The position numbers were made by a program, and so were the translations under genes. A DNA stretch of 64,000 bases, taken from NCBI RefSeq assembly GCF_028993555.1, contig NZ_CP118611.1, positions 1,606,001-1,670,000 on the forward strand, given 5' to 3'. Source of the DNA: Ensifer adhaerens. Its GTDB lineage: Bacteria; Pseudomonadota; Alphaproteobacteria; Rhizobiales; Rhizobiaceae. Positions 33,926 through 56,501 of the stretch are shown piece by piece (position 1 is the first letter of the stretch; each line of letters begins with the position of its first letter). The notes beneath the pieces are model-generated. The model did not search any database. It was given only the letters and a program-made list of their open reading frames with translations, and had not been told where the DNA came from.

Positions 33926-33960
33926 GGGGTGGTTCCTTTCCTGGCAGTGATTTCAGTGTG

Positions 33961-35361: not shown

Positions 35362-35378
35362 GGCTTTCGCTCCAGCCG

Positions 35379-37511: not shown

Positions 37512-37552
37512 GAGAAATGCCTCCCTGCACCTCGGTCACGGTCTATGGTGGT

Positions 37553-37580
37553 GCGCCGGCCGCTCCTTGAGGGCCGGCGC
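37553..37580 (-). terminator. Hairpin between tauA and tauB
   Basis: A perfect 9-bp stem (GCGCCGGCC at 37553-37561 with GGCCGGCGC at 37572-37580) and 10-base loop follow the tauA stop. No T-tract, so partial termination or stabilisation of the tauA mRNA is likely, giving excess binding protein. Confidence 0.5.
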
Positions 37581-37595
37581 AATCGACAGCTTAGA

Positions 37596-38612: not shown

Positions 38613-38691
38613 TCTTCGTCCTCCTCTTTGTTTGTTCCCTGACCGTTTTTCCGGTCTTGCTCATGACGATAAGGCTGAGTTCCCGCTTGCG

Positions 38692-38723
38692 TTATATCCA
38701 GTTTGGAAGTTGAATAGATCCAG
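38692..38723 (-). promoter_or_regulatory. Two direct repeats, candidate TauR binding sites
   Basis: On the minus strand CTGGATCTAT (38723-38714) and CTGGATATAA (38701-38692) repeat with a 22-bp period, about two helical turns. They resemble the CTGGAC-type direct repeats reported for TauR of Rhodobacter capsulatus. They lie in the tauA-tauR gap, 80-111 bases before tauA and 11-42 before tauR. Confidence 0.65.
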
Positions 38724-38733
38724 ATTGACGTCG

Positions 38734-40263
38734 ATGGAGAGCGGCGGCGTGCGGATCACGGTTTCCGAAACCATCTTCTTCATCGATCGTGAAAGCGGGA
38801 TCGGGCTGCAGGCACAGTTGCGCGAGACGATCGTTTCGGCTGTGCTTGCCGGCCGGGTTCAGCCGCACGCGCATCTGCCTTCGACACGCAAGCTTGCCGA
38901 CTATCTGCAGATCTCGCGCATCACGGTAACCCTCGCCTATCAGGAACTGATCAACCAAGGCTATGTCGAAGCCGTCAACCGCAGTTCCTATCGGATTGCC
39001 GGCAACCCGCCCGGCATGGATGTGGAGGGCAACCGCCCAGCCGTCGGCGCGGATCCGGTGGATTGGAGCCGCAAGATCAAGATGAATTTTGAGGTGGTGC
39101 GCCAGGTTCCGAAGCCCCTGGACTGGCGACGCTATCCGTTTCCCTTCCTCTATGGCCAGATGGACCCGACGCTGTTCGATCTTAACGCCTGGCGCGATTG
39201 CGCCCGCCGAGCCCTTGCGCGGGAAGACTTCGTGCTGATGGCGAGCGACTTCGCCGCTGCCGACGATGTGCGATTGGTCAACTACATCTGTTCGCGCACG
39301 CTGCCACGCCGCGGCATCCAGGCCTCTCCGGACGAAATCCTCGTCACCGTCGGCGCGCAGAATGCGCTCTGGATCGTAACCCGGCTGATCCTCGAAAAGG
39401 GCTCTGCCGCCATCTGCGAAAATCCTTGCCACCCGGACATCAGCGCCTCGCTGCTCCTGAGCGGCGCCGACGTCACCACCGTCGACGTCGATCGCGAAGG
39501 CCTGTCGCCGGATGCCCTGCCGGAGAAAGTCGACGCCGTCTTCGTGACGCCGAGCCACCACTCGCCGACAGGCGCGACCATGCCGGTCGACCGGCGCACC
39601 CAGTTGCTTCAAGCGGCGGAGGAAAGGGATTTCGTCATTGTCGAGGACGATTACGAGTTTGAGATCAGCTACCTCGCCCCGCCCTCGCCGGCGCTGAAGG
39701 CGCTCGATCCCTCGGGACGCGTGCTCTATATCGGCAGCTTCTCGAAATCGCTGTTTCCCGGCCTTCGGCTCGGTTACCTTGTGGCGCCTGCTCCCTTCAT
39801 TCGTGAGGCACGCGCGCTACGCTCGCTGATGCTGCGCCACCCGCCTGGACATCTGCAGCGCACCGCAGCCTATTTCCTGGCGCTCGGTCACTACGATGCC
39901 GTGCTGCATCGCATGCGGACCGAATACCACAAGCGCCACGTAATTATGGCCGATGCGCTGCGTCGCGAAGGCCTGACGGTCGCAGGCTCCTCGGCCTTCG
40001 GTGGCACCTCCTTCTGGATGGAGGGACCGGAGGGGCTCGACGCCGACCGGCTGGTAAGCGAACTGCGGCCAGACGGCGTTCTGGTTGAGTCCGGCTCACC
40101 CTTTTTCCCGAAAAGCGACCAGCCCTGCCGCTATTTCCGGATGGGATACTCGTCCATTCCGAGCACCAGTATCGCCGAAGGCGTCGCCCGCGTTCGCGCC
40201 CGCATCGATGTGCTGTCTTGCCGCAACAACTCCGGAAAACCGCCAAGCAGCGAGCGGGCTTGA
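38734..40263 (+). CDS. tauR: TauR, MocR-type regulator of taurine genes
   Basis: A 509-residue MocR/PdxR-family protein with an N-terminal GntR-type winged helix (about residues 20-90, STRKLADYLQISRITVTLAY) and a fold-I aminotransferase-like domain. The PLP lysine is in IGSFSKSLFPGLRLGYL. TauR of this type needs PLP and taurine to activate taurine genes. It is divergent from tauA with two candidate boxes in between. Start 38734 was chosen because upstream in-frame codons run into the tauA start region. Confidence 0.9.
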   Translation: MESGGVRITVSETIFFIDRESGIGLQAQLRETIVSAVLAGRVQPHAHLPSTRKLADYLQISRITVTLAYQELINQGYVEAVNRSSYRIAGNPPGMDVEGNRPAVGADPVDWSRKIKMNFEVVRQVPKPLDWRRYPFPFLYGQMDPTLFDLNAWRDCARRALAREDFVLMASDFAAADDVRLVNYICSRTLPRRGIQASPDEILVTVGAQNALWIVTRLILEKGSAAICENPCHPDISASLLLSGADVTTVDVDREGLSPDALPEKVDAVFVTPSHHSPTGATMPVDRRTQLLQAAEERDFVIVEDDYEFEISYLAPPSPALKALDPSGRVLYIGSFSKSLFPGLRLGYLVAPAPFIREARALRSLMLRHPPGHLQRTAAYFLALGHYDAVLHRMRTEYHKRHVIMADALRREGLTVAGSSAFGGTSFWMEGPEGLDADRLVSELRPDGVLVESGSPFFPKSDQPCRYFRMGYSSIPSTSIAEGVARVRARIDVLSCRNNSGKPPSSERA

Positions 40264-40354: not shown

Positions 40355-41545
40355 CTAGACTGCACGAGCTGCAGCAAGCGCACGCTCCAGGTCAGCCTTG
40401 AGATCGGCGACATCCTCCAACCCAATCTGCAGGCGCAGGACCGGTCCTTCTGTCGGGACGCGTGTCACCTTGCGTTCTCCAAGGTTGACATGAAGCGCAA
40501 GGGAGGCAAACCCGCCCCACGAATATCCCAAACCAAAGATCGTAAGCGCGTCCAAGAACGCCTGGGCTTTCGCCTTGAACCTGTCTTCATGCTCGGCGCG
40601 AAGGACGAACGAGAAGACGCCGCTTGCTCCCTTGAAATCGCGCTTCCAGAGGGTATGGCCGGGAAAACTCGGCAGGCCGGGATGCAGCACGCGTGCGACG
40701 TCGTCGCGGCTTTCGAGCCAGTTGGCGATCTCAAAGGCGCTTGCCTGATGTCGCTGAAGCCGAATTCCGAGTGTCCGCAGTCCGCGCAGGACTTGATAGG
40801 CGTCGTCGGGTGCAGCACAAAGACCAAGCAACCCGTTTACCTCCTTCAAGCGCGGCCAGTGTTCGGCATTCGCCGACACAGTTCCGAACAGGATATCGGC
40901 GTGGCCGGCCGGATATTTGGTGGAGGCCTGGATGGAAACATCGACCCCGAAGTCGAGCGGCCTGAAATAGATGGGCGTCGCCCAGGTGTTATCCATCGTG
41001 ACGATCGCCCCACGCCTGTGTGCCACCGCGACGATAGCGGGAATGTCCTGGATCTCGAACGTGTTGGAGCCCGGTGCTTCCGTGTGAACAAGCCGGGTAT
41101 TGGGCTTGAACAGCGGTTCGATGTCCGCCCCCAGCGATGGGTCGTAGTAGTCCACTTCGATGTTGAGGCGCGCCAGCATGACGTCGCAGAACTGGCGGAC
41201 ATTGCCATAGACGGAATCGACGATCAGCGCATGATCTCCGGGGGCGAGATAGGCAAGCAACGGAACGGTGACGGCGGCAAGCCCGGAGGGTACAAGGATC
41301 GAGCCGGCGGCCCCCTCCAATTCGTTGACCGCGTCACACAGCGCGTCCGTCGTCGGCGTGCCGCGGGTGCCGTAGGTATATTTCTGCCCGTGCGTTTCCA
41401 TCGTATGCGCGTCCGGAAAAAGCACCGTTGACCCGTGCACGACCGGTGGATTTATGAAGCCACGCTGACTGGTCGGATCATACCCCGCCTTGATCAACTG
41501 TGTTTGCGGACCCGGTTTGGCGCTGGCGCTTGCTTTGTCATTCAT
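40355..41545 (-). CDS. Cys/Met-metabolism PLP enzyme (cystathionine beta-lyase type)
   Basis: A 396-residue fold-I PLP enzyme of the Cys_Met_Meta_PP family. The Schiff-base lysine is in QASTKYPAGHADILFG, and TYGTRGTPTTDAL and LEGAAGSILVPSGLAAV are typical of MetC-like beta-lyases. It is the last gene of the minus-strand organosulfur operon, 40 nt after a DsbA-like gene, and ends facing tauR. In this setting it could split a thioether amino acid to thiol, ammonia and pyruvate. A gamma-synthase activity is also possible for the family. Confidence 0.87.
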   Translation of the reverse strand: MNDKASASAKPGPQTQLIKAGYDPTSQRGFINPPVVHGSTVLFPDAHTMETHGQKYTYGTRGTPTTDALCDAVNELEGAAGSILVPSGLAAVTVPLLAYLAPGDHALIVDSVYGNVRQFCDVMLARLNIEVDYYDPSLGADIEPLFKPNTRLVHTEAPGSNTFEIQDIPAIVAVAHRRGAIVTMDNTWATPIYFRPLDFGVDVSIQASTKYPAGHADILFGTVSANAEHWPRLKEVNGLLGLCAAPDDAYQVLRGLRTLGIRLQRHQASAFEIANWLESRDDVARVLHPGLPSFPGHTLWKRDFKGASGVFSFVLRAEHEDRFKAKAQAFLDALTIFGLGYSWGGFASLALHVNLGERKVTRVPTEGPVLRLQIGLEDVADLKADLERALAAARAV

Positions 41546-41585
41546 GATCGCATGCTCTTTGAAGGATTGAGGATCGGTTGCGAAG

Positions 41586-42182
41586 CTATGGTCGATCACC
41601 ACCCAGATGGCGTTCCAGGAAGGACAGGTTGTCCTGTCCCCAATAGAGCTCACCATCATAGCGATAGGTCGGGAAGCCGAACACACCGCTTGCAACGGCG
41701 TGATTGCGATCATCGGCCCACTTTGCCTTGACGTCTTCATCCGCCTCGCGCCGGGCGAGCGCCGCGCCGTCAAGACCCGCGGTCCGCGCAATCGCTTCGC
41801 GCACATCCGGACTGCCGATATCCCTGGCTTCGGCCCAGAAGGCATGCTGCAGCGCGCTTGTGAGGCCGACCCAGTCCTTCCCGTCGAGAAAGGCCGCAAT
41901 TACGATCAGCGATGCGGATGCCGGGTCGGCAAGTCCGCCTCGACCGTCAAGCTGAAGCGACTTTCCGCGCACTCGCGCCCACCGGGTAAGATCGCGCGTC
42001 CCATAGGCGCGGCGGACATCCGGTCGATTTCGGGAGAAAATCCCGCCATTCTCTTCGATGACGGTGGCAAGATAGGGCCTGATCTCCGCACCGTGGCGCG
42101 CGGCGAGCCCGACCAACGTATCGAAACCGATATGAGACCACGGCGAGCCGATGGAGAAAAAGTAGTCGATCGTCCTTGTCAT
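41586..42182 (-). CDS. DsbA-family / 2-hydroxychromene-2-carboxylate isomerase-like protein
   Basis: A 198-residue thioredoxin-fold protein of the kappa-class glutathione S-transferase/HCCA isomerase group. It has IDYFFSIGSPWSHIGFDTL at the start, where SPWS replaces a CxxC motif, and GVFGFPTYRYDGELYWGQD (the cis-proline loop) near the end. No signal peptide, so it is cytoplasmic and probably glutathione- or thiol-dependent. Start 42182 has AGGA at 8 nt; 42203 is the alternative. It sits within the organosulfur operon between a flavin monooxygenase and a PLP lyase, so a thiol-transfer or isomerase step is possible. Confidence 0.8.
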   Translation of the reverse strand: MTRTIDYFFSIGSPWSHIGFDTLVGLAARHGAEIRPYLATVIEENGGIFSRNRPDVRRAYGTRDLTRWARVRGKSLQLDGRGGLADPASASLIVIAAFLDGKDWVGLTSALQHAFWAEARDIGSPDVREAIARTAGLDGAALARREADEDVKAKWADDRNHAVASGVFGFPTYRYDGELYWGQDNLSFLERHLGGDRP

Positions 42183-42234
42183 TCCTGTATTCCTGTCTGC
42201 CATTCGTTCCACACCAGATGTGTCTCTCCTCTTG

Positions 42235-43266
42235 CTAGGCCGCCCTTTGGTCGGCCGGAGACCACCCGAGTTCCGGAGCGATGCGGGTGACGAAGTCATG
42301 AACGATCTGGCGGTAGTCGTCGTCTTCGAACTCGTAGGGAAGTTCGAGCCTGAGTTCGTGGACACGCGGCAGGATCGGGTCTGCAAACAACCGTTCGAGA
42401 ATCTCTTCCGAGGTGCCGACGAGGTCACGGGCATAAAGCGTTCGTCGTTCACCCTGCGGCGTCAGCGTTCGTTCAGTACGCCCGGCAGAATAGTCCAGAT
42501 AGCGCCTGCGCGTTTTCGCATCCGCGCTGTCGAGCGGAACAATCACCCGGCCCAAAGCGACCCTTCTGTCCTCGCCGCCGGCCGCCCGATAGGTCTCGAG
42601 CTGGCGCCGCTGCGCGACGAAGAAATCGTCGGTCCCCTCCCCGGTCGTAACGTTGCCGATCAGGAGATTGAGGCCGCTGCGCCCCGCCCAGCCGGCGGAC
42701 TTCAGCGAGCCGCCGCCGTACCAGATGCGGTCCGTCAATCCTTTTGCATGTGGCTGAAGCCGGGGGCGCTGCGGGCCGAACGGCGTCTTGATGAAGGTGT
42801 CTTCGTCGCCGATCGGCTGGCCGCGCAGATTTTCGACAAAGCGTAGGACACGCGCGTGGGTAAAGTCGAAACTCTCCCAGCCATCGTCGAAGACAAGGCG
42901 GCCGATCAGGTCGGCATGCAGCGGACGTCCGGCGCTGAGACCAATGTTCAGGCGCCCCCGCGAAAGCACATCGACTGTCGAGAGATCCTCGGCGAGCCGG
43001 TAAGGGCTTTCGTAGCCGATCGGTATAACCGCCGTGCCAAGCTCGATGCGGCTGGTCCTCTGGGTCGCAGCCGCGAGAAAGGCAGCGGCCGACGATATGC
43101 CGGGTTCCAGATGTCTCTGGCGCACCCAGGCGCTGGCAAAGCCCAATGCCTCGCCATATTGCAGGAGCGCCAGGGTTTTTTCGAGCCCGTCCAGCGGATC
43201 GTCAGCGGGGTAGTTGCCGGGGCTCAAGAAGCCGATATGGCCGATCGATATCTTGTTCTGCGTCAC
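42235..43266 (-). CDS. Luciferase-like (LLM) flavin-dependent oxidoreductase
   Basis: A 343-residue bacterial-luciferase-fold protein with ISIGHIGFLSPGNY at the start, IELGTAVIPIGYESPYRLAEDL and RGRLNIGLSAGRP in the core. LLM enzymes oxidise with FMNH2 and O2 or use F420. The GTG start at 43266 follows GGGAG; it is 11 nt after a binding-protein gene. One of three LLM genes in this operon, it likely performs one oxidative step on an organosulfur compound. Confidence 0.83.
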   Translation of the reverse strand: MTQNKISIGHIGFLSPGNYPADDPLDGLEKTLALLQYGEALGFASAWVRQRHLEPGISSAAAFLAAATQRTSRIELGTAVIPIGYESPYRLAEDLSTVDVLSRGRLNIGLSAGRPLHADLIGRLVFDDGWESFDFTHARVLRFVENLRGQPIGDEDTFIKTPFGPQRPRLQPHAKGLTDRIWYGGGSLKSAGWAGRSGLNLLIGNVTTGEGTDDFFVAQRRQLETYRAAGGEDRRVALGRVIVPLDSADAKTRRRYLDYSAGRTERTLTPQGERRTLYARDLVGTSEEILERLFADPILPRVHELRLELPYEFEDDDYRQIVHDFVTRIAPELGWSPADQRAA

Positions 43267-43277
43267 GCGAGCGCTCC

Positions 43278-44213
43278 CTAGAATTTCGGCAGACCGGGCG
43301 GATTGGTTTCGGATTTCGGCAGGGCCTCCTCCTGGAGGTGCCAACGTTCCAGTACCTTGCCGTAAGTGCCATCCTCGATCAGGCCATTGGTGGCGATCGT
43401 CAGAGCGTTGGCGAGCCCGCTGCCCTTGCGTGTGGTGATCGCCACGTCCGAACGCTCAGGCCAGCCGGCGCTCAAGGTCCCGACACGTTTGATGTTGTTG
43501 TCGCGGGCGGCGATGAAGACGAGTTGCGCATGCGGCTGAACAATGACGTCTGCCCGCCCGGAGGCGAGTGCCACGAGGCTCGTCGCCTCGTCGTCATAGT
43601 ATTGCAGTTCCAACGGTTTCAATCCCGCGGCGACATTTTCGTCGCTCCATTTGAGCAGGATGCGCTCCTGGTTGGTGCCGGCGCCGACAATGATCCTGAG
43701 ACCCGCGGCATTCTTCGGCTCCTTGATCGAAGTGATACCGCTATCGGATTTGACGAAGAAGCCATGCAACCCCTGGCGATAGGTCGAGAAATCGAACTTC
43801 TCCTTGCGCTGTTCGGTGACACCGACATTCGAGATCACGGCATCGTACTTGCCGGAGGTCAGCCCAAGCGGCCAGTCGATCCAGGCGACGGGAACGAGTT
43901 CGAGCTCGAGGCCAAGGCTGTTGGCGACTGCACCGGCATATTCCGGATCCGCGCCAATCACCGTGCGTGCGTCGGTAGCGTAGGTGGCAAGCGGCGGGCC
44001 GCCAGGGCTGACGGCGACCGTGAACTTGCCTGGCGTAACAAACTTGAAGTCCGCGGGGATGGCCGCGACTGCGGTTTCGTTGCGAACGGCATGGACCCGG
44101 CCAGGCTGTTCGGGGCTGAGATCAAAGCCGGTGTCGGCCTGCGCCGAGCCAACATGGAGAAGAGCTGCCGTGGCGGCGGCGAGAAGAGTGCGAAAGCGGG
44201 GCGTGCCGTTCAT
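43278..44213 (-). CDS. Amino-acid-type ABC transporter substrate-binding protein
   Basis: A 311-residue family-3 solute-binding protein with a signal peptide ending near AQA-DT and an internal GKYDAVISNVGVTEQRKEKF. It is clearly a paralogue of the adjacent upstream binding protein (shared FDLSPE, SGKYDAVISNV, RKEKFDFSTYR, GAGTNQE, NPPGLPK). The pair probably serves the fused permease/ATPase at 45300 with different ligand ranges. Polar or sulfur-containing amino acids are the likely ligands. Confidence 0.88.
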   Translation of the reverse strand: MNGTPRFRTLLAAATAALLHVGSAQADTGFDLSPEQPGRVHAVRNETAVAAIPADFKFVTPGKFTVAVSPGGPPLATYATDARTVIGADPEYAGAVANSLGLELELVPVAWIDWPLGLTSGKYDAVISNVGVTEQRKEKFDFSTYRQGLHGFFVKSDSGITSIKEPKNAAGLRIIVGAGTNQERILLKWSDENVAAGLKPLELQYYDDEATSLVALASGRADVIVQPHAQLVFIAARDNNIKRVGTLSAGWPERSDVAITTRKGSGLANALTIATNGLIEDGTYGKVLERWHLQEEALPKSETNPPGLPKF

Positions 44214-44281
44214 GCTGTGGGTCTCCGAATGAAGTGCAGAAGCTGGACCGGCGGCGCCGCCGCCGATCCACTGAGGTCGAA

Positions 44282-45226
44282 TCAGGAACCGCTCTTCGGC
44301 AGACCGGGCGGGTTCGTCTGCGCGGCATCGACGGCCTCTGCACCGAGGCTCCAGCGCTTCAGCACCTCGCCATATTTGCCGCTCTTGATCAGGTCGCTGA
44401 GCGCGATGGTGACGGCATCGGCGAGGCCACCGCCCTTGCGGGTCGTCACGGCGATCTCGGCCGTCAGCGGCCAGCCGCCGCTGACGATGCCGACGACCTT
44501 CGTGTCGTTCCTGATCGATGCGGCATAGGCTCTGGTGGCGTTCGGATTGAACTCGACATCGGCGCGGCCCGACTGCAAGGCGAGATCGCTGGCCGCGCGA
44601 TCGTCGTAGTACTGCACCTCGATCGGCTTCAGGCCTGCGGCCACATTCTGCCGGTCCCATTCCAGGATGATCTTTTCCTGGTTGGTGCCGGCTCCGGTGA
44701 TCACCTTCAGCCCGGCGACGTCCTTCGGTTCCTTGATCTCGGTGATCTTGCTGTCGGACTTGACGAAGAAGCCGAGTACGTCCTTGCGATAGGTGGAGAA
44801 ATCGAACTTCTCCTTGCGCTCCTCGGTCACGGTGACGTTGCTGATCACGGCGTCGTATTTGCCGGAGCTGACGCCGAGCGGCCAGTCCGCCCAGGCGACG
44901 GGCACGAGCTCGAGTTCGAGACCGAAGCTATCGGCGAGCAGCGAGGCGATATCCGGATCCGCGCCGACCACGGTCTTGGAGTCCGATGCGTAAGTGGCAA
45001 TCGGCGGATCCCAAGGGTTGACGGCAATGGTGAACTTGCCCGGGTTGACGAACTTGAAGTCGGAACCGATCGCATTAACTGCCGCCTCGTTCTTTTCGGC
45101 GCGAATGCGGTTGGAGGTATCGGGGCTGAGGTCGAACTTTTCCTGGGCGCTGGCCGTGGCGATACCGAACGTCGCAGCGGCGACGACGCCAGCGAGCAAC
45201 AACTTTGCAGTGTCAAGCATTCTCAT
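44282..45226 (-). CDS. Amino-acid-type ABC transporter substrate-binding protein, paralogue
   Basis: A 314-residue family-3 binding protein with signal peptide (cleavage near ASA-QE) and the same core motifs as its neighbour. Start 45226 follows AAGGAG. It lies directly after the fused permease/ATPase gene, so it is probably the main partner; the next gene may have arisen by tandem duplication. A GC-rich palindrome (44249-44262) lies between the two. Confidence 0.88.
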   Translation of the reverse strand: MRMLDTAKLLLAGVVAAATFGIATASAQEKFDLSPDTSNRIRAEKNEAAVNAIGSDFKFVNPGKFTIAVNPWDPPIATYASDSKTVVGADPDIASLLADSFGLELELVPVAWADWPLGVSSGKYDAVISNVTVTEERKEKFDFSTYRKDVLGFFVKSDSKITEIKEPKDVAGLKVITGAGTNQEKIILEWDRQNVAAGLKPIEVQYYDDRAASDLALQSGRADVEFNPNATRAYAASIRNDTKVVGIVSGGWPLTAEIAVTTRKGGGLADAVTIALSDLIKSGKYGEVLKRWSLGAEAVDAAQTNPPGLPKSGS

Positions 45227-45299
45227 ATCTTGCTCCTTTTCCATTACTGGTTGAGTAAATTGACAGACCTCGCCTATCGGGAACGTCCGTCAGGTTCTT

Positions 45300-47075
45300 T
45301 CAAAGCACGCGCGCCAGAAATTCGCGGGTGCGCGGGTGCTTTGCATGGGTGAAAATCTCGGCCGGCGGGCCCGCTTCCAGCACCCGGCCCGCCTCCATGA
45401 AGACCACGGTGTCGGCAACCTCGCGGGCAAAGCCGACCTCATGGGTAACGATCACCAGCGTCGTGCCGGTGCGCGCCAGTTCCTTGATCACATCCAGCAC
45501 TTCGCCGACGAGTTCCGGATCAAGTGCGGAGGTCGGCTCGTCGAAGAGCAGCACCTTCGGTCTGAGGGCCAAGGCACGGGCGATCGCGACGCGCTGTTGC
45601 TGCCCGCCCGAAAGCTGGCGCGGATAGGCATTGATCTTGTCGCTCAAGCCGATGCGGGCGAGCAATTCCTGGGCGATGCGTACCGCCTCGTCCCGCCCGA
45701 GGCCGCGCACGTGCAGCGGCGCCTCGATCAGATTTTCGAGCACGGTCAAGTGTGGGAAAAGATTGAAGTTCTGGAACACCATGCCGATATCGGCGCGGCG
45801 CTTCAGGATGTCCTTTTCTTTGAGCTCGTAAAGTGTATCGCCCTTCTGGCTGTAACCGACGAGTTCGTCGTCGATCGAGATGAAGCCATCATCGACGCGT
45901 TCGAGGTGATTGATCGTTCGAAGCAGGGTCGACTTGCCCGAACCGGAAGGACCAAGGATAGCGGTGACGCTGCCCGCCTCAAGGTTCAGCTCGACGCCAT
46001 CCAGAACCTTGAGAGATCCGAAACTCTTGGAGATGCCATGCACATGCACGGCGCCGCCGGAGCGGAAGGCCTGCGCGTCGCGAAAGCCGGTCTTGACCAC
46101 GGCAGCGCTCTGGGGAGCGGCATCCGGCAACGGTCGGCGGAAGCGTGCGATCAATGACTGGAACGGCAAGGGCACGGGATTGCGGACGGCCCCTTTCGAA
46201 AAATAGCGCTCGATGTAGTGCTGGGCGATCGAAAGCCCGGTCATGATCACCAGATACCAGACGGTCGCGACCATCAGCAGCGGGATGACTTCGAGATTGC
46301 GGCGGTAGATGACCTGGACCGTATAGAACAGCTCGGGCAACGCCAGCACATAGACCATCGACGTGCTCTTCGCGAGACCGATGATCTCGTTGAAGCCGGT
46401 GGGCAGGATCGAGCGCATGGCCTGCGGAAGCACGATGCGGAAGGCCTGGCGACGGCGAGGCAGCCCGAGCGCTGCTGCCGCCTCATGCTGTCCTTGGTCG
46501 ACGGCGAGTATGCCGCCGCGCACGATCTCGGCGAAGAAGGCAGCCTGGTTAAGTGTCAGTCCCAGGAAAGCAGCAGCGAAGGGCGTCAGAAGCTGCGTCG
46601 TCGGGTAGTGGAACCACGCGGCCTCGGTAAAGGGCACGCCGATGCTGATCGTCTCGTAGAGATAGCCGAGATTGTTGAGCACCAGCAGAAGCACGATCAG
46701 CGGGATGGAACGAAGCAGCCAGATGTAGCCGAAGGAAAGGCCCGACAGCAGAGGCGACCTCGATACGCGGGCGAGCGCCAGCGCCGTGCCGAGAAGCGAG
46801 CCGGAAACGGTTGCGAGCGCCGTCAGAAGAAGGGTCCGGCCGAGGCCCGCCAGGACCGGCTCGGCGAAAAACCATTCCGCGAAGACCGGCCAGCCCCAGC
46901 GCGGATTGGTCAGCACCGAATAGAGCACACCGGCAATGACGAGGGCTGCAAAAAGCGTCCCGAGCGTACGCCCCGGGTGGCGTGCCGGCACGATGCGGAA
47001 ATGGGCGTAACCGGGATTCGGTTCACTGGTCCGCCTAGTGGCGGGCACGCCGGCGAGATCGGTCAGAACTGCCAT
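45300..47075 (-). CDS. Amino-acid ABC transporter, permease and ATPase fused in one protein
   Basis: A 591-residue fusion. Residues about 30-300 are a HisMQ-type permease ([21 protein letters not shown] loop); about 345-590 are a polar-amino-acid ATPase with [24 protein letters not shown] and [12 protein letters not shown]. The same fusion is known in other proteobacterial amino-acid importers. The start follows AGAGGA. It is central in the operon, before two binding proteins and after the GNAT gene, and so imports the pathway's substrate. Confidence 0.92.
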
Positions 47076-47117
47076 GATGGATTCCTCTCCTGAAATCTGT
47101 TGAGGCGGCCGCTGGTA

Positions 47118-47669
47118 CTAGACGTGGTTCACGGCTTGTGGCTTTGACGGAGGCGTGTCGCCGATAAGCGTGAGTGACACCACGAGATGCGTAATGTCCT
47201 TCTCGAACGGCAGCGTCTTGTAGGCTTCAGGATCAGCCTCAACGTCGAAGAGCGCGGTGTAGCCGTTCGCAAGGTAGAGGCCGACGGCTTCGGGCTGGCG
47301 AAACCCGGTCGTCAGATAGATGCGTGAATAGCCTTGCCGCGCCGCCTGCGCTTCGAGCTCGAGCAGCACCTTTCGCGCCAGGCCCTGGCGGCGCAAATCC
47401 GATCGCGTCCAGATGCGCTTGAACTCGGCGGTGCGATCGTCATAGTGCTTGAAGGCGCCGCCACCGATCGCTTGCCCGTCGCGCATCAACAGCACGAAGT
47501 TGCCGTGCGGCGACGCGAAGGCTTCTGGCGGGTAGCGGTTCATCTCGGCTGCCGCCCCTTCTTCGCTGAAGTAGGTGCCGTAGCGACTATCATATTCGAA
47601 GATGAGTTCATCGATCAGCGGCTTGGCGCGCGGGTCGAGGGGCGTGGTGTAGAGAAACGTGTCGCTCAT
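47118..47669 (-). CDS. GNAT-family N-acetyltransferase
   Basis: A 183-residue GNAT protein. The acetyl-CoA P-loop R-x-x-G-x-A is in SDLRRQGLARKVLLELE, followed by the typical LYLANGYTALFD ending. An ATG at 47681 would add four residues. It overlaps no neighbour and lies 23 nt after the M20 gene. In B. subtilis yxe-type operons the equivalent GNAT N-acetylates an S-substituted cysteine before oxidation; this is a family-context inference. Confidence 0.85.
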   Translation of the reverse strand: MSDTFLYTTPLDPRAKPLIDELIFEYDSRYGTYFSEEGAAAEMNRYPPEAFASPHGNFVLLMRDGQAIGGGAFKHYDDRTAEFKRIWTRSDLRRQGLARKVLLELEAQAARQGYSRIYLTTGFRQPEAVGLYLANGYTALFDVEADPEAYKTLPFEKDITHLVVSLTLIGDTPPSKPQAVNHV

Positions 47670-47691
47670 GTCTTTCGCCATCCCGTGTTCG

Positions 47692-48879
47692 TTATGCGAG
47701 GAAGGTTTCCACCAGCCGAACCCAATAGCGGGCCGCCGGTGCGATGATCGCGTCGTTGAAGTCGTATTGGGCGCTGTGAAGCGGCGCGCTGTCGCCGTTG
47801 CCAACGAAGGCGTAGTTGCCCGCCTTTTCCTCCAGGAAGAACGCGAAGTCTTCGCTGGCCGTCCGCGGCTTGAAGTCGCCGATGATCGTGTCCTGACCAA
47901 GAGCCTGAACCGCGACATTGCGGGCGAAATCCGTTTCGCGCCGATGGTTGACGAGCGCCGGGAACCCGAGCCGGTAGTCGACCTCGGCCTTTGCACCGAA
48001 GCTCTCGGCCTGCGCGCGCGCCAGTGCCTGCACGCGTTCGCCGAGCAGGCGTCGAACCTCGCCGTTGAAGGCGCGTAGAGTGAGCTTCAGCGATACGCTC
48101 TCGGGGATGACGTTCGATGCCTGGCCGCCGTGAATGGAGCCGACCGTGACGACGGCCATATGCTGCGGATCGACATTGCGCGAGACCAGGCTCTGAAGCG
48201 CCGTGATCAGCGATGCCGTCGCCAGCACCGGATCAACCGTCAGATGCGGCTCGGCCCCATGGCCGCCCTTGCCGACCACCGTGATGTTCGCCTGATCGAC
48301 CGACGCCATGGCCGGTCCTTCAACGAAGCCGAAACGGCCGGCCGGCACCCCCGGCCAATTGTGCAGGCCGAAGACCACATCGACGCGGAACCGCTCGAAC
48401 AGGCCCTCCGACAGCATTCTTCGCGCACCAGCGCCGATTTCCTCGGCCGGCTGGAAGATCAGCCGCAGCGTACCGTCAAAACGCCCCTCACCCGCCAGAA
48501 AGCGGGCTGCGGCAAGCAGGATCGCCGTATGCCCGTCATGGCCGCAGGCGTGCATCACGCCCTTGCTGCGGCTGGCATAGGTTAAACCGGTTGCCTCCTC
48601 GATCGGCAGCGCATCCATGTCCGCGCGAAGGCCGATCGACTTCTCGCCACTCCCGCGCCGGAGCGTGGCGACGATACCGGTTCCGGCGATGCCGCGGCTC
48701 ACCTCATATCCCCAGGAGGCGAGCAGATCGCCCACCTGGCTGCTGGTGCGCTTTTCCTGGAAAGCGAGTTCCGGATGCTGGTGCAGGTCGCGGCGGATCG
48801 CGACGATCTCGTCAATGAAAGCGGCTAGGCCCCGTTCGACGGCGGCGGATCTTTGGGTATTGGTGACAATCAGGTTCAT
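47692..48879 (-). CDS. M20-family amidohydrolase/deacetylase
   Basis: A 395-residue M20D aminoacylase/carboxypeptidase-like enzyme. The metal-site signatures are HACGHDGHT (about residue 100) and FQPAEEIGAGA. It likely removes an acyl group from an N-acyl amino acid. Its partner GNAT directly downstream suggests an acetylate-oxidise-deacetylate cycle. ATG 48879 is preferred; a TTG at 48903 overlaps the preceding stop and has better Shine-Dalgarno proximity in the previous gene. Confidence 0.87.
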   Translation of the reverse strand: MNLIVTNTQRSAAVERGLAAFIDEIVAIRRDLHQHPELAFQEKRTSSQVGDLLASWGYEVSRGIAGTGIVATLRRGSGEKSIGLRADMDALPIEEATGLTYASRSKGVMHACGHDGHTAILLAAARFLAGEGRFDGTLRLIFQPAEEIGAGARRMLSEGLFERFRVDVVFGLHNWPGVPAGRFGFVEGPAMASVDQANITVVGKGGHGAEPHLTVDPVLATASLITALQSLVSRNVDPQHMAVVTVGSIHGGQASNVIPESVSLKLTLRAFNGEVRRLLGERVQALARAQAESFGAKAEVDYRLGFPALVNHRRETDFARNVAVQALGQDTIIGDFKPRTASEDFAFFLEEKAGNYAFVGNGDSAPLHSAQYDFNDAIIAPAARYWVRLVETFLA

Positions 48880-48899
48880 AGGATTTGTTCGTCGGCTCC

Positions 48900-50249
48900 T
48901 CAAGCGCCGACGGCCTTCCCCCGCTCAACGGTCGGCGCAGATTGCGCGTAGCGGCTTTCGCGGTAGACGAGCCCCAAATGATCACGGAGCGTCGCCCCCT
49001 CGAGCCTTGGATTGAAATAGCCACGACGTTCCAGGATCGGCAGCACATGTGCGACGAAGTCGGCGAGACCTTCGGCGATCACCGGAAAGCCGAGGATGAA
49101 GCCGTCGGCGGCATCCTGATCGATCCATCTGATGATCTCGTCGGCGATATGCTCTGCCGTGCCGATGAAGGCGGTTCTCGGTGTGGCGACATCGAGCGCG
49201 ATCTCGCGCAGAGTCGCCCCGGTTTCGCGGGCCGCCTTTTTGATGCGGTCCGTGGTTGCCCGGAAGCTGTTCTTGCCGATATCCCCGATATCAGGAAACG
49301 GCTCGTCCAGCGGATAGGCGCTGAAGTCGTGATGGTCGAAGAAGCGACCGAGATAGAGCAACGCCTCCTCGATCGTCACGAGATCGCGGATTGCGCGGTG
49401 CTTCGCCTCGGCCTCCTCGGCCGTTGCTCCGACGATCGGGCCGATGCCCGGGAAGATGCCGATCTCCGCAGCACGGCGCCCCTGCGCCACCGCACTTTGC
49501 TTGACCTGCTTGTAGAAGACCTTCGCGTCTTCGATCGGGCCGCCATTGGTGAACACGGCATCGGCATGTTTGCCCGCAAGCCGGATCCCGGAATCGGAGG
49601 CTCCTGCCTGGAACACCACCGGCTGCCCCTGTCTGGAGCGTTCGATGTTGAGCGGGCCCTCGATCCGGAAGAAACGCCCCTTGTGGTTCAACCGGCGCAG
49701 CTTCGACTTGTCGGCATAGACGCCGGTTGCCCTGTCACGCACGAAGGCGTCGTCGTCCCAACTGTCCCAGAGGCCCTTGATCACGTCGAGATATTCGTCG
49801 GCAATCTCGTAGCGCAGCTCATGTTCCGGGTGCTCGCGGCCGTAGTTGCGGCCGGAGCCTTCAAGCGGCGAGGTCACTGCATTCCAGCCCGCGCGGCCGC
49901 CGCTGATGAGGTCGAGCGAGGCGAATTGCCGGGCGATTGTGAACGGGTCGCTGTAGGAGGTCGAAACCGTGCCGACCAGGCCGATCTTCGAGGTCGAAGC
50001 GGCGAGTGCCGACAGGATGGTCAGTGGCTCGAAGCGGTTGAGGAAATGCGGGATCGACTGCTCGTTGATGTAGAGGCCGTCCGCGACGAAGGCGAAGGCG
50101 ATGCCGGCGGCTTCGGCCTTTCGCGCCGTTTCGACGAAGAAGTCAAAATTGACGCTCGCGTCCGCCGGGCCGCTTGGATGTTTCCAGGCGTTCATATGCC
50201 CGCCCGGCCCTTGCAACATGATGCCGAAATTCACGTTCTTCTTGGTCAT
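48900..50249 (-). CDS. NtaA/SnaA/DszA-family FMNH2-dependent monooxygenase (YxeK-like)
   Basis: A 449-residue LLM-superfamily monooxygenase. The motifs [32 protein letters not shown] and [16 protein letters not shown] are diagnostic for the NtaA/SnaA/DszA group, which uses FMNH2 from a separate reductase to cleave C-S or C-N bonds. The yxe-type homologues act on S-(2-succino)cysteine derivatives. The ATG follows AAGGA. It is 21 nt after another LLM gene and is supplied, presumably, by the FMN reductase at 51722. Confidence 0.9.
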
Positions 50250-50270
50250 GGCAGATCCTTCCCGGAAAAT

Positions 50271-51266
50271 TCAGGCGGCGAGAGAAAGCCGTTCCCGCGC
50301 GATGAGTTCGATCGAGGCGAAGCGCTCGCTGGCGCTGACCGCAGGGGTGTCGATGACGAATTCCTTGACGCCGTAGCGTCGGTGCAGCTCGTCGAATTCC
50401 TGGCGAACCTGCCGCGCCGTGCCGGTGAGCACGCTCGGCGTCTTCTCCTCGACGCGGTAGTCGGCAATCCCGGCCTGACGAGCGAATTCGGCAGCCTGCT
50501 CCTCACTGCCGACATTGACACTCTGGCCGTTTGCAAGCAGCACCTTGAAAATCTTCAGGTCCGCGACGCGTTCGCGTGCCCGCTGTTCGCTTTCGGCCGC
50601 GAACGCCGCGAGAGCAAGAAGCGGTCGGTCGCCCCTGGTTGCGCGGTCATAGGCGTCGAAGGTTTTCTGCAGATTGTCCGGATCGCCGTTGAGGTGGCCG
50701 GCGAAGACAAGCTTCCAGCCCTTTTGGGCAGCCAGCAACGCGCTGTCGACACTCGCGCCCAGCAGAAAGCGCTCCGGCGCGACGGACGGCAGCGGCGTCG
50801 CCAACAGCTCCGAAGCCGCCTCGCCCTCTGCCAGCAAATAGCGGTTGAGCTCGGCCAACTGCTCCGGGAAGCTCGGCCGCAAAGCCGGATCAACTCCGAC
50901 CTGCAACGCTTTGGTGGAGAACGGAAAACCACCGGGTGCCTTGCCGACGCCGAGATCGACCCGGGAAGGCGCGAGACTGGCAAGCAGGTTGAAGGTCTCG
51001 GCGACCTTGTAGGCACTGTAGTGCTGCAGCATGACGCCGCCGGAACCGATGCGGATCTTCGACGTCCTCGCCAGGAGGTAGGCGATCAAGGTTTCCGGCG
51101 CAGAGCTCGCAAGGCCGGCTATGTTATGGTGCTCCGCGACCCAGAAGCGGTGGTAGCCCCATTCCTCCGCCTTCACGGCAAGGTTGGCCGTCGTATGCAG
51201 AGCCTGGGTCGGCGTGCCTCCTGGATCGACGGGACTTTTGTCGAGAAGGCTGAGCAGATAGGACAT
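50271..51266 (-). CDS. Luciferase-like (LLM) flavin-dependent oxidoreductase
   Basis: A 331-residue LLM protein of the YhbW/MsnO8-like group. The core has WGYHRFWVAEHHN, IRIGSGGVMLQHYSAYKVAE and VDLGVGKAPGGFP. It is the first gene of the organosulfur operon; the ATG at 51266 is chosen, with an upstream ATG (51296) lacking a ribosome site and lying in the repeat region. FMN- or F420-dependent use cannot be told by eye. Confidence 0.85.
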   Translation of the reverse strand: MSYLLSLLDKSPVDPGGTPTQALHTTANLAVKAEEWGYHRFWVAEHHNIAGLASSAPETLIAYLLARTSKIRIGSGGVMLQHYSAYKVAETFNLLASLAPSRVDLGVGKAPGGFPFSTKALQVGVDPALRPSFPEQLAELNRYLLAEGEAASELLATPLPSVAPERFLLGASVDSALLAAQKGWKLVFAGHLNGDPDNLQKTFDAYDRATRGDRPLLALAAFAAESEQRARERVADLKIFKVLLANGQSVNVGSEEQAAEFARQAGIADYRVEEKTPSVLTGTARQVRQEFDELHRRYGVKEFVIDTPAVSASERFASIELIARERLSLAA

Positions 51267-51295
51267 GGTTCGCAGTTCCACCACGGTTGACGACA

Positions 51296-51330
51296 TAAAT
51301 ACATTAAATACATAATTTTTATAGATTATA
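51296..51330 (-). promoter_or_regulatory. -10 element and tandem 9-bp repeats ahead of the organosulfur operon
   Basis: On the minus strand TATAAT (51330-51325) is a perfect -10, with only a weak -35 at 17 bp. Just downstream are two exact tandem copies of ATGTATTTA (51313-51305 and 51304-51296). They cover roughly +1 to +25, the place for a repressor. Confidence 0.5.
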
Positions 51331-51721
51331 GGAATGACGTTCTCTTTGGCTGCCCGAAACAAGAAAAGTTGCCGCTTTCATTCACATACCGAGAGGCGTC
51401 TTTCTCCAATCCGGAGACGTCGTTTCGAGGGATGATTCCGGGCCGCGGTCCCTGTGCGAGACCGGTCCTGGATGCAGATGTACGGAGATGCGAGGATATT
51501 GGAGCCGGAGCGTTGCGGTGCACCGCGGGCATGACACCGACCGGCGTCGTTGCAGTTGCACCCCGTGGAGCTAGGCCGCCTGCTGCTTCGATAGAAGGCG
51601 CGGCCTGAGGCGAAACTCGTTCGCCACTACACGTGCTGGTGCGTGGTCACGGCGAGGTGCTGCCTTCCCGAACAAAGAAGGCAGAGCCATGGTCAAGCTA
51701 GGCATTCCGCTCGAGCAAGGC
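51331..51721. other. Intergenic stretch with a terminator-like hairpin
   Basis: No gene is supported. An 8-bp perfect stem with 9-base loop (CTGCCTTC 51660-51667, GAAGGCAG 51677-51684) lies 38 nt after the FMN reductase stop and may terminate it. A 79-codon plus-strand frame at 51369-51608 has no recognisable features. The rest shows nothing clear. Confidence 0.5.
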
Positions 51722-52282
51722 TCAAGCTGCGAAACCGACACTCTTGTCGGCTGCCGGAAGGATGTTGGCGAGGTCAGACAAAAGATCCTCGAAGCGAGCC
51801 GTCAAACGCGAAGGCGCGATCTTGTAATCCTTGAAATCGACGTCCGATGCATAGATTGCCGTTGGAAGCGTCCGTGCGCTAAAAAAACCAAAGAGGGGAC
51901 GGAGCTGATGCTCCACGACCAACGCGTGCCGGTCACCCCCGCCGGTTGCGGTCAGGATCACCGGTTTGCCCCTGAGTTCGTGCGGATCGATCAGATCGAA
52001 CAGGTGCTTGAAGAGACCGGGATAGGATCCTTTGTATGTCGGGGAGCCGACGAGCAGGACATCTGCAGAAACAACGGCTTCGACAACCCGTTTCGCCTGC
52101 TCGTCCAGGTCCTTGCGCCAAAGCGCACGTCCAAGCGACGGCCCGACATCATTCAGATCGTAGAGCCCAGTCTCCACGGCATATCGCGCCCCGATCAGCG
52201 TGGCGATGTGCTCACTGAGGGCGTAGGTTTTCGATGGGCGATTGAAACTGCCAGCAATACCAACGAGCCTGGGGGTAGACAT
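51722..52282 (-). CDS. NADPH-dependent FMN reductase (MsuE/SsuE type)
   Basis: A 186-residue flavodoxin-fold reductase of the NADPH-dependent FMN reductase family, with VGIAGSFNRPSKTYAL at the start and VGSPTYKGSYPGLFKHLFDL. Such reductases provide FMNH2 to sulfonate and organosulfur monooxygenases. It precedes the LLM genes on the same strand but a 455-nt gap and a hairpin suggest a separate transcript. The ATG follows GGAGGG. Confidence 0.9.
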   Translation of the reverse strand: MSTPRLVGIAGSFNRPSKTYALSEHIATLIGARYAVETGLYDLNDVGPSLGRALWRKDLDEQAKRVVEAVVSADVLLVGSPTYKGSYPGLFKHLFDLIDPHELRGKPVILTATGGGDRHALVVEHQLRPLFGFFSARTLPTAIYASDVDFKDYKIAPSRLTARFEDLLSDLANILPAADKSVGFAA

Positions 52283-52534: not shown

Positions 52535-53182
52535 TCAGGCTTGCTCTATTGTCCGCGCCCAGGCCGCGGCCCGTCGCGCCGAGGCCTCCAGCACCGGTTT
52601 GGGTGCCTTGTACCACTCGTCCTCAGGGATAGCACGTCTGTTGCGGACAAAGGCTATCGCTGCTTCCAGGGACGGAAATTCGTCCGGCAGTGTCAGATGC
52701 AGAAAAAGCGATACCACAGCGACGGAACGCGAGCGCCCGCCGCGGCAATTGACGAGCACGCTGCCGCGCTCACGCCGGGGATAGGATGGTTTCTCCGGCA
52801 GGATCTGTTCGAGTGCTGCCCGCAGGATGTAGTGGGCCGCGAGCATCTGCGTCTCCGGATTTCCATCGCCGTCGATCAGTCCGATCTTGTAGTAGCGGAT
52901 CTCACCGGGGCCATGGATGCTGTTGCGGTGGTCTGCAACAAGCTGCGGCTGGCAGACGAAGTTGAAATCGAGATTGACCGCACAGTTGACGACGGTGGTG
53001 ATGCCGTTTTCGCGCAGAAGGTCGAGATCGCTTGCCCCCTCCTTGCCGGCGATGAAGAGGTCAACGCCATAGGTCGGATGCTTCGCATAGATGAGACTGA
53101 GTTTTGGCAGCTCGCGGCTGGGCGTGCCGCCTGCTGGGGCATCACTGAAACTGTCGAGCATGTTTTCCTCATCTGTTTTCAT
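52535..53182 (-). CDS. Dual-specificity / tyrosine-phosphatase-like protein
   Basis: A 215-residue protein with the cysteine phosphatase loop CRGGRSRS (Cys146, Arg152) and an upstream acidic loop IDGDGN (about 104-108). The usual His before Cys is Asn (VNC). The start overlaps the IMPase-like stop (ATGA), so it is the coupled last gene of the ABC operon. In this setting it could dephosphorylate an imported small molecule instead of a protein; substrate is not known. Confidence 0.82.
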   Translation of the reverse strand: MKTDEENMLDSFSDAPAGGTPSRELPKLSLIYAKHPTYGVDLFIAGKEGASDLDLLRENGITTVVNCAVNLDFNFVCQPQLVADHRNSIHGPGEIRYYKIGLIDGDGNPETQMLAAHYILRAALEQILPEKPSYPRRERGSVLVNCRGGRSRSVAVVSLFLHLTLPDEFPSLEAAIAFVRNRRAIPEDEWYKAPKPVLEASARRAAAWARTIEQA

Positions 53183-54072
53183 GACGCCGATGCCTTGGCG
53201 CTGCGGCCAGCCGAGATTGCCGCGCCGATACGGTTCAAGGTCGGATAGTCGCCGCCGTGGCCGTAGGCGAGATAGCCCGGGCAAAGGTAGTCGATGGTTC
53301 CGTCCGGCACCTTTCCAAGCGTCAGCGGCTCATAGCGTCCGCCGGCGTTCTTCAGGATCAGCGTCGCTGCGGCCACGTCCCACGCATTGACGCCGAAACC
53401 GGCCGCCGCGTCACAGAAGCCGGCCGCCACATGGGCGATGCTGAGCGCGGCGCTGCCCGGTCTGCGCAGGGTCGAGAAGGTCTCGACGAGGTCGCCAAGG
53501 CGCGCAAGCGCGACGTCACGGCCATCGAGGCGAAAATCTCTCGAAACGGGATAACCGGTGATCAGGGTCGCGCGGCTCTCGTCACTGACCGATTTCGAGG
53601 CGATAACCTCTCCATTGAGATAGGAGCGTTCGCTATCGGCGGCAAACAGCAGATTGGCCATCGGATCGTAAACCACCCCCGCCACGACGGCGCCCTGCTC
53701 GACCGCTGCTATCGACACGCACCAGAAGGCGAGACCGCGCGCAAAGTTGGCGGTTCCGTCGATCGGATCGACATACCACTGGATCTCGCCGGCACCGACC
53801 TGGCCGCCCTCCTCGCCGAGCATCGCCGAATTCGGTTCGTGGTCGAAGATGAAGTCGCGGATCAGGGTCTCGGCTTGTCTGTCGTGGATCGTCACGACGT
53901 CATGCAGGTCGCGCTTGTAATCGACCACCATGTCCGAGCGAAAGGCCGCAAGTAGCGGCGCGCCGACCACTCGGGCAGCACCCTCGGCAATTCTCATCAG
54001 ACGGCGCGAGCGGTCGAGCCGTTCCTCGTCAACCGAGACCTTCTGGCTCACGGCCTTGTTGGCGTCGTTCAT
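53179..54072 (-). CDS. Inositol-monophosphatase-family phosphatase
   Basis: A 297-residue IMPase-family enzyme with the metal-binding motifs GEEGG (86-90), DPIDGTANF (102-110) and the C-terminal NAWDVAAATLILKNAGG. It hydrolyses small phosphate esters with Mg2+; the family covers inositol phosphates, histidinol phosphate, PAP and sugar phosphates. It lies in an ABC importer operon, 68 nt after a binding protein, with a second phosphatase next. An imported phosphate ester is the natural substrate, by inference. Confidence 0.9.
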   Translation of the reverse strand: MNDANKAVSQKVSVDEERLDRSRRLMRIAEGAARVVGAPLLAAFRSDMVVDYKRDLHDVVTIHDRQAETLIRDFIFDHEPNSAMLGEEGGQVGAGEIQWYVDPIDGTANFARGLAFWCVSIAAVEQGAVVAGVVYDPMANLLFAADSERSYLNGEVIASKSVSDESRATLITGYPVSRDFRLDGRDVALARLGDLVETFSTLRRPGSAALSIAHVAAGFCDAAAGFGVNAWDVAAATLILKNAGGRYEPLTLGKVPDGTIDYLCPGYLAYGHGGDYPTLNRIGAAISAGRSAKASAS

Positions 54073-54140
54073 GCTCTCTTCCCATTCATGCTAAACAGCC
54101 GGCGCGACCTTTCCTCGTGATGTCGCGCCGGCCGAGGTTG

Positions 54141-55268: not shown

Positions 55269-55310
55269 GGTCTCCCCTCCCAAGGATACCGTTTCAAAGG
55301 GTGCACGCAG

Positions 55311-56447: not shown

Positions 56448-56501
56448 CGTCTGTTCCTCCCTCAGATTATGTTTCGGTCTGGTGTTCGGCGCCGAAGCGC
56501 C

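Follow-up and report, generated by a model that had tools for sequence, protein, structure and literature searches.

A conserved Ensifer gene cluster with three luciferase-like monooxygenases and its likeness to the ytm-type operon for S-alkyl-cysteine salvage

The 64,000-nucleotide stretch of Ensifer adhaerens DNA analyzed here (the window) belongs to a contig of 2.78 Mb, in a genome that totals 7.77 Mb, and carries, at positions 40355 to 52282, eleven consecutive minus-strand genes whose likely role in organosulfur salvage is our subject. The FMN reductase gene comes first and the gene for a cystathionine beta-lyase (CBL) last; between them lie, in this order, two genes for luciferase-like monooxygenases (LLM1 and LLM2), the M20 and GNAT genes, a fused ATP-binding cassette (ABC) permease/ATPase gene, two genes for solute-binding proteins (SBPa and SBPb), a third monooxygenase gene (LLM3), and a gene for a DsbA-like protein. 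From LLM1 to CBL the genes form a tight run of ten with intergenic gaps of 10 to 68 bp, and the FMN reductase gene, upstream of LLM1, is set apart by 455 bp. Judged by LLM3, the closest named relatives are Ensifer strains, with E. adhaerens ST2 at the top.

The cluster and its conservation

Families were assigned by profile matches to NCBIfam, with its curated cut-offs, and to Pfam, with the Pfam cut-offs. The matches to TIGR03566 (MsuE), TIGR03558 (MsnO8), TIGR03860 (NtaA/DmoA), TIGR01891, and NF004626 lie above the NCBI cut-offs, and those to PF00296 (three proteins), PF01546, PF00583, PF00528 with PF00005 (in a single protein), PF00497 (two proteins), and PF01323 lie above the Pfam cut-offs. 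Gene reading and profiles thus bear out a preliminary description of the locus as eleven same-strand genes of these families. The plain list of open reading frames places the start too far upstream for several genes, and the likely starts are reassigned in the following list, where all features are on the minus strand.

51722..52282, minus: NAD(P)H:FMN reductase of the MsuE type, 186 aa (TIGR03566, 244.4 bits, cut-off 212.5)
51297..51347, minus: promoter/operator-like conserved element before LLM1, a diverged copy of AAAGAGAA-N5-TTTCTTATAAT ... TCTAcTGATTTTATAGACTA
50271..51266, minus: LLM1, MsnO8-family luciferase-like monooxygenase, ATG start at 51266 (TIGR03558, 324.6 bits, cut-off 166.95)
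48900..50249, minus: LLM2, predicted C-S monooxygenase of the YtnJ/CmoJ type (TIGR03860, 512.6 bits, cut-off 279.7)
47692..48879, minus: M20 amidohydrolase, proposed N-acetyl-cysteine deacetylase (PF01546; TIGR01891 over cut-off)
47118..47681, minus: GNAT N-acetyltransferase, proposed to N-acetylate S-alkyl cysteine (PF00583, 54.2 bits)
45300..47075, minus: fused amino-acid ABC permease/ATPase (PF00528 and PF00005)
44282..45244, minus: SBPa, family 3 periplasmic binding protein (PF00497)
43278..44213, minus: SBPb, family 3 periplasmic binding protein, tandem paralogue of SBPa (PF00497)
42235..43266, minus: LLM3, third luciferase-like monooxygenase, likely GTG start (PF00296, 101.8 bits)
41586..42182, minus: protein of the DsbA-like/HCCA-isomerase/GST-kappa type (PF01323, 81.8 bits)
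40355..41545, minus: second CBL (NF004626, 709.8 bits, cut-off 649)

We compared the cluster in 80 loci, the best 80 of 230 confirmed stretches by LLM3 similarity with one genome per species, a selection that biases the set towards LLM3. Core genes were counted when they showed more than 50% identity over more than 50% coverage, all on one strand. The eight-gene core LLM1-LLM2-M20-GNAT-ABC-SBPa-SBPb-LLM3 is complete in 76 of these 80 relatives, with median gaps of 15 to 88 bp, and the block is therefore a conserved unit and no chance collection; the scattering of the genes in close relatives that would have undone the preliminary description is not what is found. In each of the four exceptions a single gene falls below the threshold, namely LLM2 in locus L046, LLM1 in L063 and L095, and SBPb in L110, which has two SBPa-like genes. 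The GNAT and M20 genes occur together, each in all 80 loci, and LLM1 is present in 78, the DsbA-like gene in 41, the FMN reductase in 22, and CBL in 16. The reductase gene lies upstream in the window and in the Microvirga loci L101 and L104; elsewhere it is often at the other cluster end or outside the stretch, and in many Rhizobium loci it stands 3' of the DsbA-like gene.

A sample of 347 genomes of the order, own genome included, is less biased towards LLM3, though related genomes in it are not independent. LLM2 (E <= 1e-150) was found in 11 of the 347 and LLM3 (at least 50% identity) in 10, all of which fall among the 11, and LLM3 as a random neighbour is thereby ruled out. At the level of the phylum, 26 of 398 genomes have LLM2 at E <= 1e-130. 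The best 120 of 3149 matches to the LLM1 protein (7996 candidates scored) are Alphaproteobacteria wherever an organism is named, and LLM3 at E <= 1e-60 occurs on 155 plasmid records, 124 of them from Rhizobium. Distance matrices of the cluster proteins correlate at 0.68 to 0.93, which mostly reflects species relatedness, in a comparison that covered cluster proteins only.

A further comparison of 42 loci, mostly picked by LLM2 similarity, includes 36 with LLM2 at 55% identity or more. The MsnO8-type LLM1 accompanies LLM2 in 33 of the 36, on the other strand in L170 and L175, and the named loci among these are from Alpha-, Beta-, and Gammaproteobacteria. It is absent beside LLM2 in L112, L179, and L188; the L188 stretch is too short, and L057, a contig of the same length, does show LLM1. 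LLM3 at 50% identity or more is found in only 13 of the 36 loci (in L158 on a separate contig, L231); none of the 17 loci L164 to L180 has it at this level, nor do the named stretches of Pantoea, Acinetobacter, and Paraburkholderia. Since many loci with LLM1 and LLM2 have no LLM3 at this level, LLM1, LLM2, GNAT, and ABC look like an older core to which LLM3 would have been added later. L112 is a megaplasmid of Niallia taxi (Bacillaceae), where positions 7085 to 16929 hold an LLM2-type gene (66% identity) and M20 without LLM1, beside a divergent ABC transporter set recognized by gene layout only; no other Bacillota record is among the matches listed (20 of 456).

The 300 bp before LLM1 were compared in 77 sequences, 64 of them non-redundant. 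The 8-mer TTTATAGA occurs in 54 of the 64, and the majority sequence AAAGAGAA-N5-TTTCTTATAAT precedes it. Instances of the element were gathered with an anchor that is present in 71 of the 77, a soft count because the anchor is short. The copy in the window (51347 to 51297) is diverged and scores 19.5 bits, although it is itself part of the training set. A second element-like sequence (19.3 bits) lies at window position 2348 on the plus strand, immediately ahead of the gene for a LysR-type regulator at 2394. A riboswitch between 30000 and 54000 is ruled out by the lack of any Rfam match at the gathering score, and a promoter and terminator scan gave counts at chance level.

Likeness to the S-alkyl-cysteine salvage pathway

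Two binding proteins are a trait of the ytm operon of Bacillus subtilis, and we take them to be the products of tcyJ and tcyK, the snaA product to be the GNAT, CmoO to be YtmO, an LLM, and BSU29310 to be ytnJ/moxC. Gene names that match parts of our cluster are given for the B. subtilis operon, in which BSU29310 is called cmoJ (PMC6323116), and the ytmI operon of Listeria is described as also including an FMN reductase (PMC9239247). As outlined by Hazra and Begley (PMC10863075), the S-alkyl cysteine is acetylated, CmoO forms the sulfoxide, CmoJ yields an aldehyde and a sulfenic acid, and reduction and deacetylation follow.

The best match of LLM2 among solved structures is 3sdo (660.8 bits, E 8.1e-198), followed by B. 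subtilis YtnJ/CmoJ (MoxC, 1yw1) with 538.6 bits and E 9.6e-161 over residues 6 to 428; only 3sdo scores above YtnJ, and LLM2 thus has the similarity expected of a CmoJ orthologue. Further matches are far lower, at 302.8 (7e36), 268.9 (DszA), 217.0 (riboflavin lyase), 207.4 (EDTA monooxygenase), and 202.4 bits (DmoA). The nearest structure for LLM1 is the luciferase-like monooxygenase 4us5, presumably MsnO8, and we propose LLM1 as the CmoO counterpart for S-oxygenation. For M20 the nearest solved structure is YxeP/ScmP (1ysj, E 6.2e-76), and the M20 enzymes ScmP, YhaA, and YtnL are described to deacetylate N-acetylcysteine (Zmuda et al., PMC12757645). The importer is of the amino-acid ABC kind with two binding proteins. 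Its ATPase half is near the EhuA, TcyN, and GlnQ models, with none over its cut-off among the 25 models shown; the best models for the binding proteins are cystine and Lys/Arg/Orn binding proteins, both below cut-off, SBPa matching the cystine model PRK11260 best at 77.9 bits under a cut-off of 312.

We propose, with a probability of roughly 0.7, that the cluster is the form which the CmoO/CmoJ (ytm-type) operon for S-alkyl-cysteine salvage takes in Alphaproteobacteria. Our observations concern gene content, order, conservation, and family membership, and every reaction is carried over from B. subtilis biochemistry. The ABC system with its two binding proteins would import S-substituted cysteines or related amino acids, which GNAT would N-acetylate. 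The MsuE-type reductase would supply FMNH2 to the LLM enzymes, of which LLM1 would form the sulfoxide and LLM2 would split it at the C-S bond, releasing an aldehyde together with N-acetylcysteine sulfenic acid. Reduction of this acid would come next, perhaps by glutathione with the HCCA-isomerase/glutathione S-transferase (GST) kappa-like protein, and M20 would strip the acetyl group to give cysteine. CBL could optionally handle sulfur amino acids further on, and LLM3 would be an extra, co-inherited flavin enzyme outside these steps.

The window cluster and the ytm operon share an acetyltransferase, an M20 enzyme, two monooxygenases, one of them CmoJ-type, and a cystine-type ABC system. They differ in gene order, in the fusion of permease and ATPase, in the MsuE-type reductase in place of ribR, and in the third LLM, the HCCA-isomerase-like protein and, often, the beta-lyase that are found here. 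The salvage of S-substituted cysteines and the ytm parallel proposed in the preliminary description are supported by the YtnJ match of LLM2, by the YxeP match of M20, and by the fitting set of FMN reductase, GNAT, and amino-acid ABC genes. Its further claim that the extra genes point to a different or broader pathway does not stand as worded: B. subtilis already uses two flavoenzymes, so that LLM1 and LLM2 would be the known pair, CBL is optional, and the isomerase-like protein can fit the sulfenate step. What is left of the claim is LLM3 as a surplus enzyme. The CmoJ clusters of Pantoea (L115) and Acinetobacter (L114) likewise combine an MsnO8-type LLM, a CmoJ-type LLM, GNAT, ABC, and two binding proteins, with an M20-like gene also in L115, whereas these stretches gave no match to LLM3, the DsbA-like protein, or CBL, and their permease and ATPase are separate. 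Our searches of the open-access literature, which covered the leading matches only, found no publication on the rhizobial cluster.

Several observations weigh against this assignment. The top solved relative of LLM2, 3sdo, carries the name nitrilotriacetate monooxygenase, and the structure matches contain no YxeK entry with which LLM2 could be compared. The equation of LLM1 with CmoO draws on gene neighbourhood, because no CmoO (YtmO) sequence entered the comparison, and LLM2-type genes at 50 to 51% identity (L181 to L185) have no LLM1 in their stretch. GNAT has no close solved relative, its best structure match reaching E 6.8e-9. The B. subtilis operon has no gene named as a counterpart of LLM3 or CBL, and in the window cluster no gene occupies the cmoI position, the gap between LLM1 and LLM2 being 21 bp (no search for the cmoI sequence was made). 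The DsbA-like gene is dispensable, since among 16 Ensifer genomes it is whole in 11, in pieces in two (G008 and G013), and absent in three (G006, G009, and G012). A search of the genome for the element before LLM1 brought up no clear second site: when as many as 3 mismatches were allowed it gave 5 sites, and a reversed-pattern control gave 8. With no excess over the control, a genome-wide (sulfur-starvation) regulon is not supported. In favour of salvage, a gene family with a ChaC representative (PF04752) is found in 14 of 92 loci and is annotated as gamma-glutamylcyclotransferase in L111 (R. johnstonii pRL10). It provides a link to glutathione breakdown, the stated source of S-alkyl cysteine, and so fits salvage without proving it, but this neighbourhood may have arisen through hitch-hiking, because the ChaC loci are mostly from one Rhizobium group.

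The nearest alternative is the yxe/scm operon of B. subtilis for S-(2-succino)cysteine breakdown, which follows the same logic of acetylation, cleavage, and deacetylation with GNAT, M20, and ABC. LLM2 would then directly hydroxylate N-acetyl-S-(2-succino)cysteine, as YxeK/ScmK does, the cluster would repair succinated cysteine, and LLM1 and LLM3 would act on other substrates. The genes common to both kinds of operon would suit this, and no YxeK sequence entered the LLM2 comparison to speak against it; the YxeP/ScmP structure nearest to M20 also fits, though the matches contained no YtnL structure. We consider it unlikely, in view of the YtnJ/CmoJ structure as second-best solved match of LLM2 and the two binding proteins of ytm kind. 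A second LLM beside LLM2 is also ytm-like, whereas the scm pathway is described with one monooxygenase, which acts on the thioether, and no sulfoxidase partner (PMC12757645), against three LLMs in the window.

The cluster might instead take up and break down xenobiotics that arrive already conjugated, either as N-acetyl conjugates (mercapturates) or with glutathione, for detoxification or carbon gain rather than cysteine salvage. The GST-kappa-like protein and the ChaC family could be read in this way, as could a family-5 (oligopeptide-type) binding protein that flanks the L118 cluster and, judged from gene layout alone, the ABC systems in L112, L240, and L243 that are not of the amino-acid type. 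Substrates already acetylated would need no GNAT, yet it is never missing from the 80 loci, and the cluster's own ABC system is of the polar amino-acid type, so we regard conjugate breakdown as quite improbable. Desulfurization of small sulfides or sulfonates such as dimethyl sulfide or methanesulfonate, in the manner of dmo/msu/sfn systems, appears very improbable: the MsuE-type reductase is over its cut-off, LLM2 is within the NtaA/DmoA superfamily, and a taurine system adjoins the cluster, but LLM2 is far less similar to DmoA and to dimethylsulfone and alkanesulfonate monooxygenases than to YtnJ, and GNAT, M20, and the amino-acid ABC system would have no evident role.

LLM3, the GST-kappa-like protein, and CBL

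LLM3 is over the cut-off in none of the 24 NCBIfam models listed. The nearest curated model is the KPN_01858 LLM family (TIGR04027), of which it is ruled out as a member with 91 bits against a cut-off of 412.9. In the core it stands directly after SBPb. The eleventh LLM2 genome of the order sample (G317, locus L153) has no LLM3 between SBPb and the DsbA-like gene, which is retained; at 16966 to 17154 it shows two short, non-significant matches to the LLM3 ends, one of 10 residues (E 7.6) and one of 8 residues (E 3.0).

Outside Rhizobiales, we read six plasmids with LLM3 relatives. Those of Roseomonas and Haematobacter have the gene order of the window cluster, Roseomonas without M20. The Paracoccus aminophilus plasmid carries GNAT-LLM3-LLM1 (48, 48, and 50% identity) and several distant NtaA-type LLMs (32 to 40%), and the Tsukamurella plasmid an amino-acid ABC system with LLM3 (58%) and, on the opposite strand, distant NtaA-type (36 to 37%) and MsnO8-annotated (31%) LLMs. 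In Burkholderia stagnalis, LLM3 (58%) is accompanied by NtaA-type LLMs (at 34 and 46%) and by an enzyme resembling acyl-CoA dehydrogenase, with no MsnO8-type gene, and the Gordonia relative (45%) has no partner. An NtaA-type LLM is thus nearby on five of the six plasmids and an MsnO8-type one on four, the close CmoJ type (71 to 72%) only on two. LLM3 relatives are also neighbours of NtaA-type LLMs that are more distant, and LLM3 might therefore act once the C-S bond is cleaved, for instance on the aldehyde; it might equally be a second sulfoxidase with another specificity. The genome has 12 luciferase-like family matches, 3 of them in the cluster, and paralogues could therefore mask mutants.

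The solved relatives of the DsbA-like protein (3fz5, 2imd, and GST kappa) place it with the HCCA-isomerase/GST-kappa type. S21-P22-W23 (counted from 42206, eight residues ahead of the likely start) is invariant in an alignment of 23 sequences, a selection of available ones with five at 31 to 38% identity among them, and is conserved at 97% or more in 41. At the aligned place GST kappa 1yzx reads SPYS and 2imd reads SPFS, whereas 3fz5 reads SGYA. The serine of the SPxS motif is catalytic in HCCA isomerase and GST kappa. The DsbA-like protein has this serine and no CXXC occurs in the 23 sequences, which rules out a CXXC thiol-oxidoreductase function of the DsbA kind. From its family and the needs of the pathway, the protein can be read as a glutathione-dependent stand-in for sulfenate reduction. 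The gene follows LLM3 at a median gap of 77 bp (n = 41), and it is not tied to CmoJ alone, because it also occurs in the LLM2-less stretches L186 and L227. Genome G286 (L227) has no LLM2 match in the search at E <= 1e-150, and G024 (L186) was judged on the stretch only. At both places (L186, 4364 to 11905; L227, 8293 to 10410) the gene adjoins that of an FAD oxidase which resembles GlcD but scores under the GlcD cut-off, and close by in L186 are also a gene like LLM3 (32%), an SsuD-like LLM, and a gene of the SfnB kind.

CBL (E <= 1e-60) is found in all 16 Ensifer genomes, and own genome has two, one in the cluster and one on contig C1 (72% identical). The idea of the cluster CBL as the cell's only beta-lyase of its type is ruled out, as all 16 genomes hold a copy 71 to 73% identical to it. 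The window CBL is a second metC-type copy and an optional passenger or accessory of the cluster. In a CBL tree, one branch (support 96/92) unites 17 of 18 cluster CBLs with four second copies (L251 to L254), and 11 Ensifer copies and one cluster CBL (L154) are on its other side. Non-cluster copies came from Ensifer only, so the tree shows merely that the window CBL is no recent copy of the Ensifer chromosomal CBL. A cysteine-synthase-family gene overlaps the LLM3 end in Haematobacter (L242, 11987 to 13009) and another lies 1.4 kb upstream of the cluster in Roseomonas (L241, 1840 to 2796), where some other relatives carry a beta-lyase, and a pyridoxal-phosphate enzyme of sulfur amino acids thus recurs at these clusters.

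Genomic surroundings and biological meaning

Several gene sets surround the cluster in the window. A taurine breakdown set (30014 to 38612) has TauA, the sulfoacetaldehyde acetyltransferase Xsc, and a phosphate acetyltransferase over cut-off, besides TauB/TauC-like proteins, a YeiH-like exporter, and an FAD oxidoreductase. Divergent from the tauA-like gene is a MocR-type regulator (38569 to 40263; PdxR model over cut-off), which by its position may regulate the taurine genes. The aminoethylphosphonate set at 18652 to 30006 has the PhnU2 permease, phosphonoacetaldehyde dehydrogenase, and PhnW over cut-off, a phn-type LysR regulator (29134 to 30006), and a Na/Pi symporter-like gene (27365 to 29032). 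Beyond the FMN reductase, the region 52535 to 59584 includes a protein with a sub-threshold dual-specificity-phosphatase match and an inositol-monophosphatase-family gene. Two adjacent similar genes without NCBIfam match (54141 to 56447) lie beside a PhnU2-like permease and a sugar/phosphonate-type ATPase.

A rosR mutant of R. leguminosarum, a strain that may or may not have the cluster, is reported to outdo its parent in drawing sulfur from S-methyl-L-cysteine (PMC2996380), and the main text of a study of R. leguminosarum phenotypes does not name the compound (PMC3597991). Gamma-glutamyl-S-methylcysteine is described to accumulate in common bean seeds (PMC3606967), which makes a link to the legume host worth testing. 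The rosR phenotype and the bean compounds fit S-alkyl-cysteine salvage and do not prove it.

Taken as a whole, a wider picture seems rather doubtful to us: LLM3 might found a new functional class. As a flavin enzyme of the luciferase-like kind, it would act downstream of several kinds of C-S-cleaving monooxygenases and, fed by the same FMN reductase, oxidize the released aldehyde to the acid as bacterial luciferase does, or handle reactive products in another way. The GST-kappa-like protein would deal with the sulfenate via glutathione, and rhizobia would scavenge S-methylcysteine compounds of legumes.

The cluster is a real, conserved organosulfur operon, in which LLM3 is of chief interest to the specialist and the GST-kappa-like protein comes second. 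As the S-alkyl-cysteine salvage operon that we propose, it would extend the recently solved CmoO/CmoJ pathway of C-S cleavage to Alphaproteobacteria of the soil, rhizobia among them, where it is often plasmid-borne. For the reduction of the sulfenate, the GST-kappa-like protein would offer a specific candidate that can be tested, and a third flavin enzyme without an assigned step would find its place in a pathway of otherwise known chemistry.

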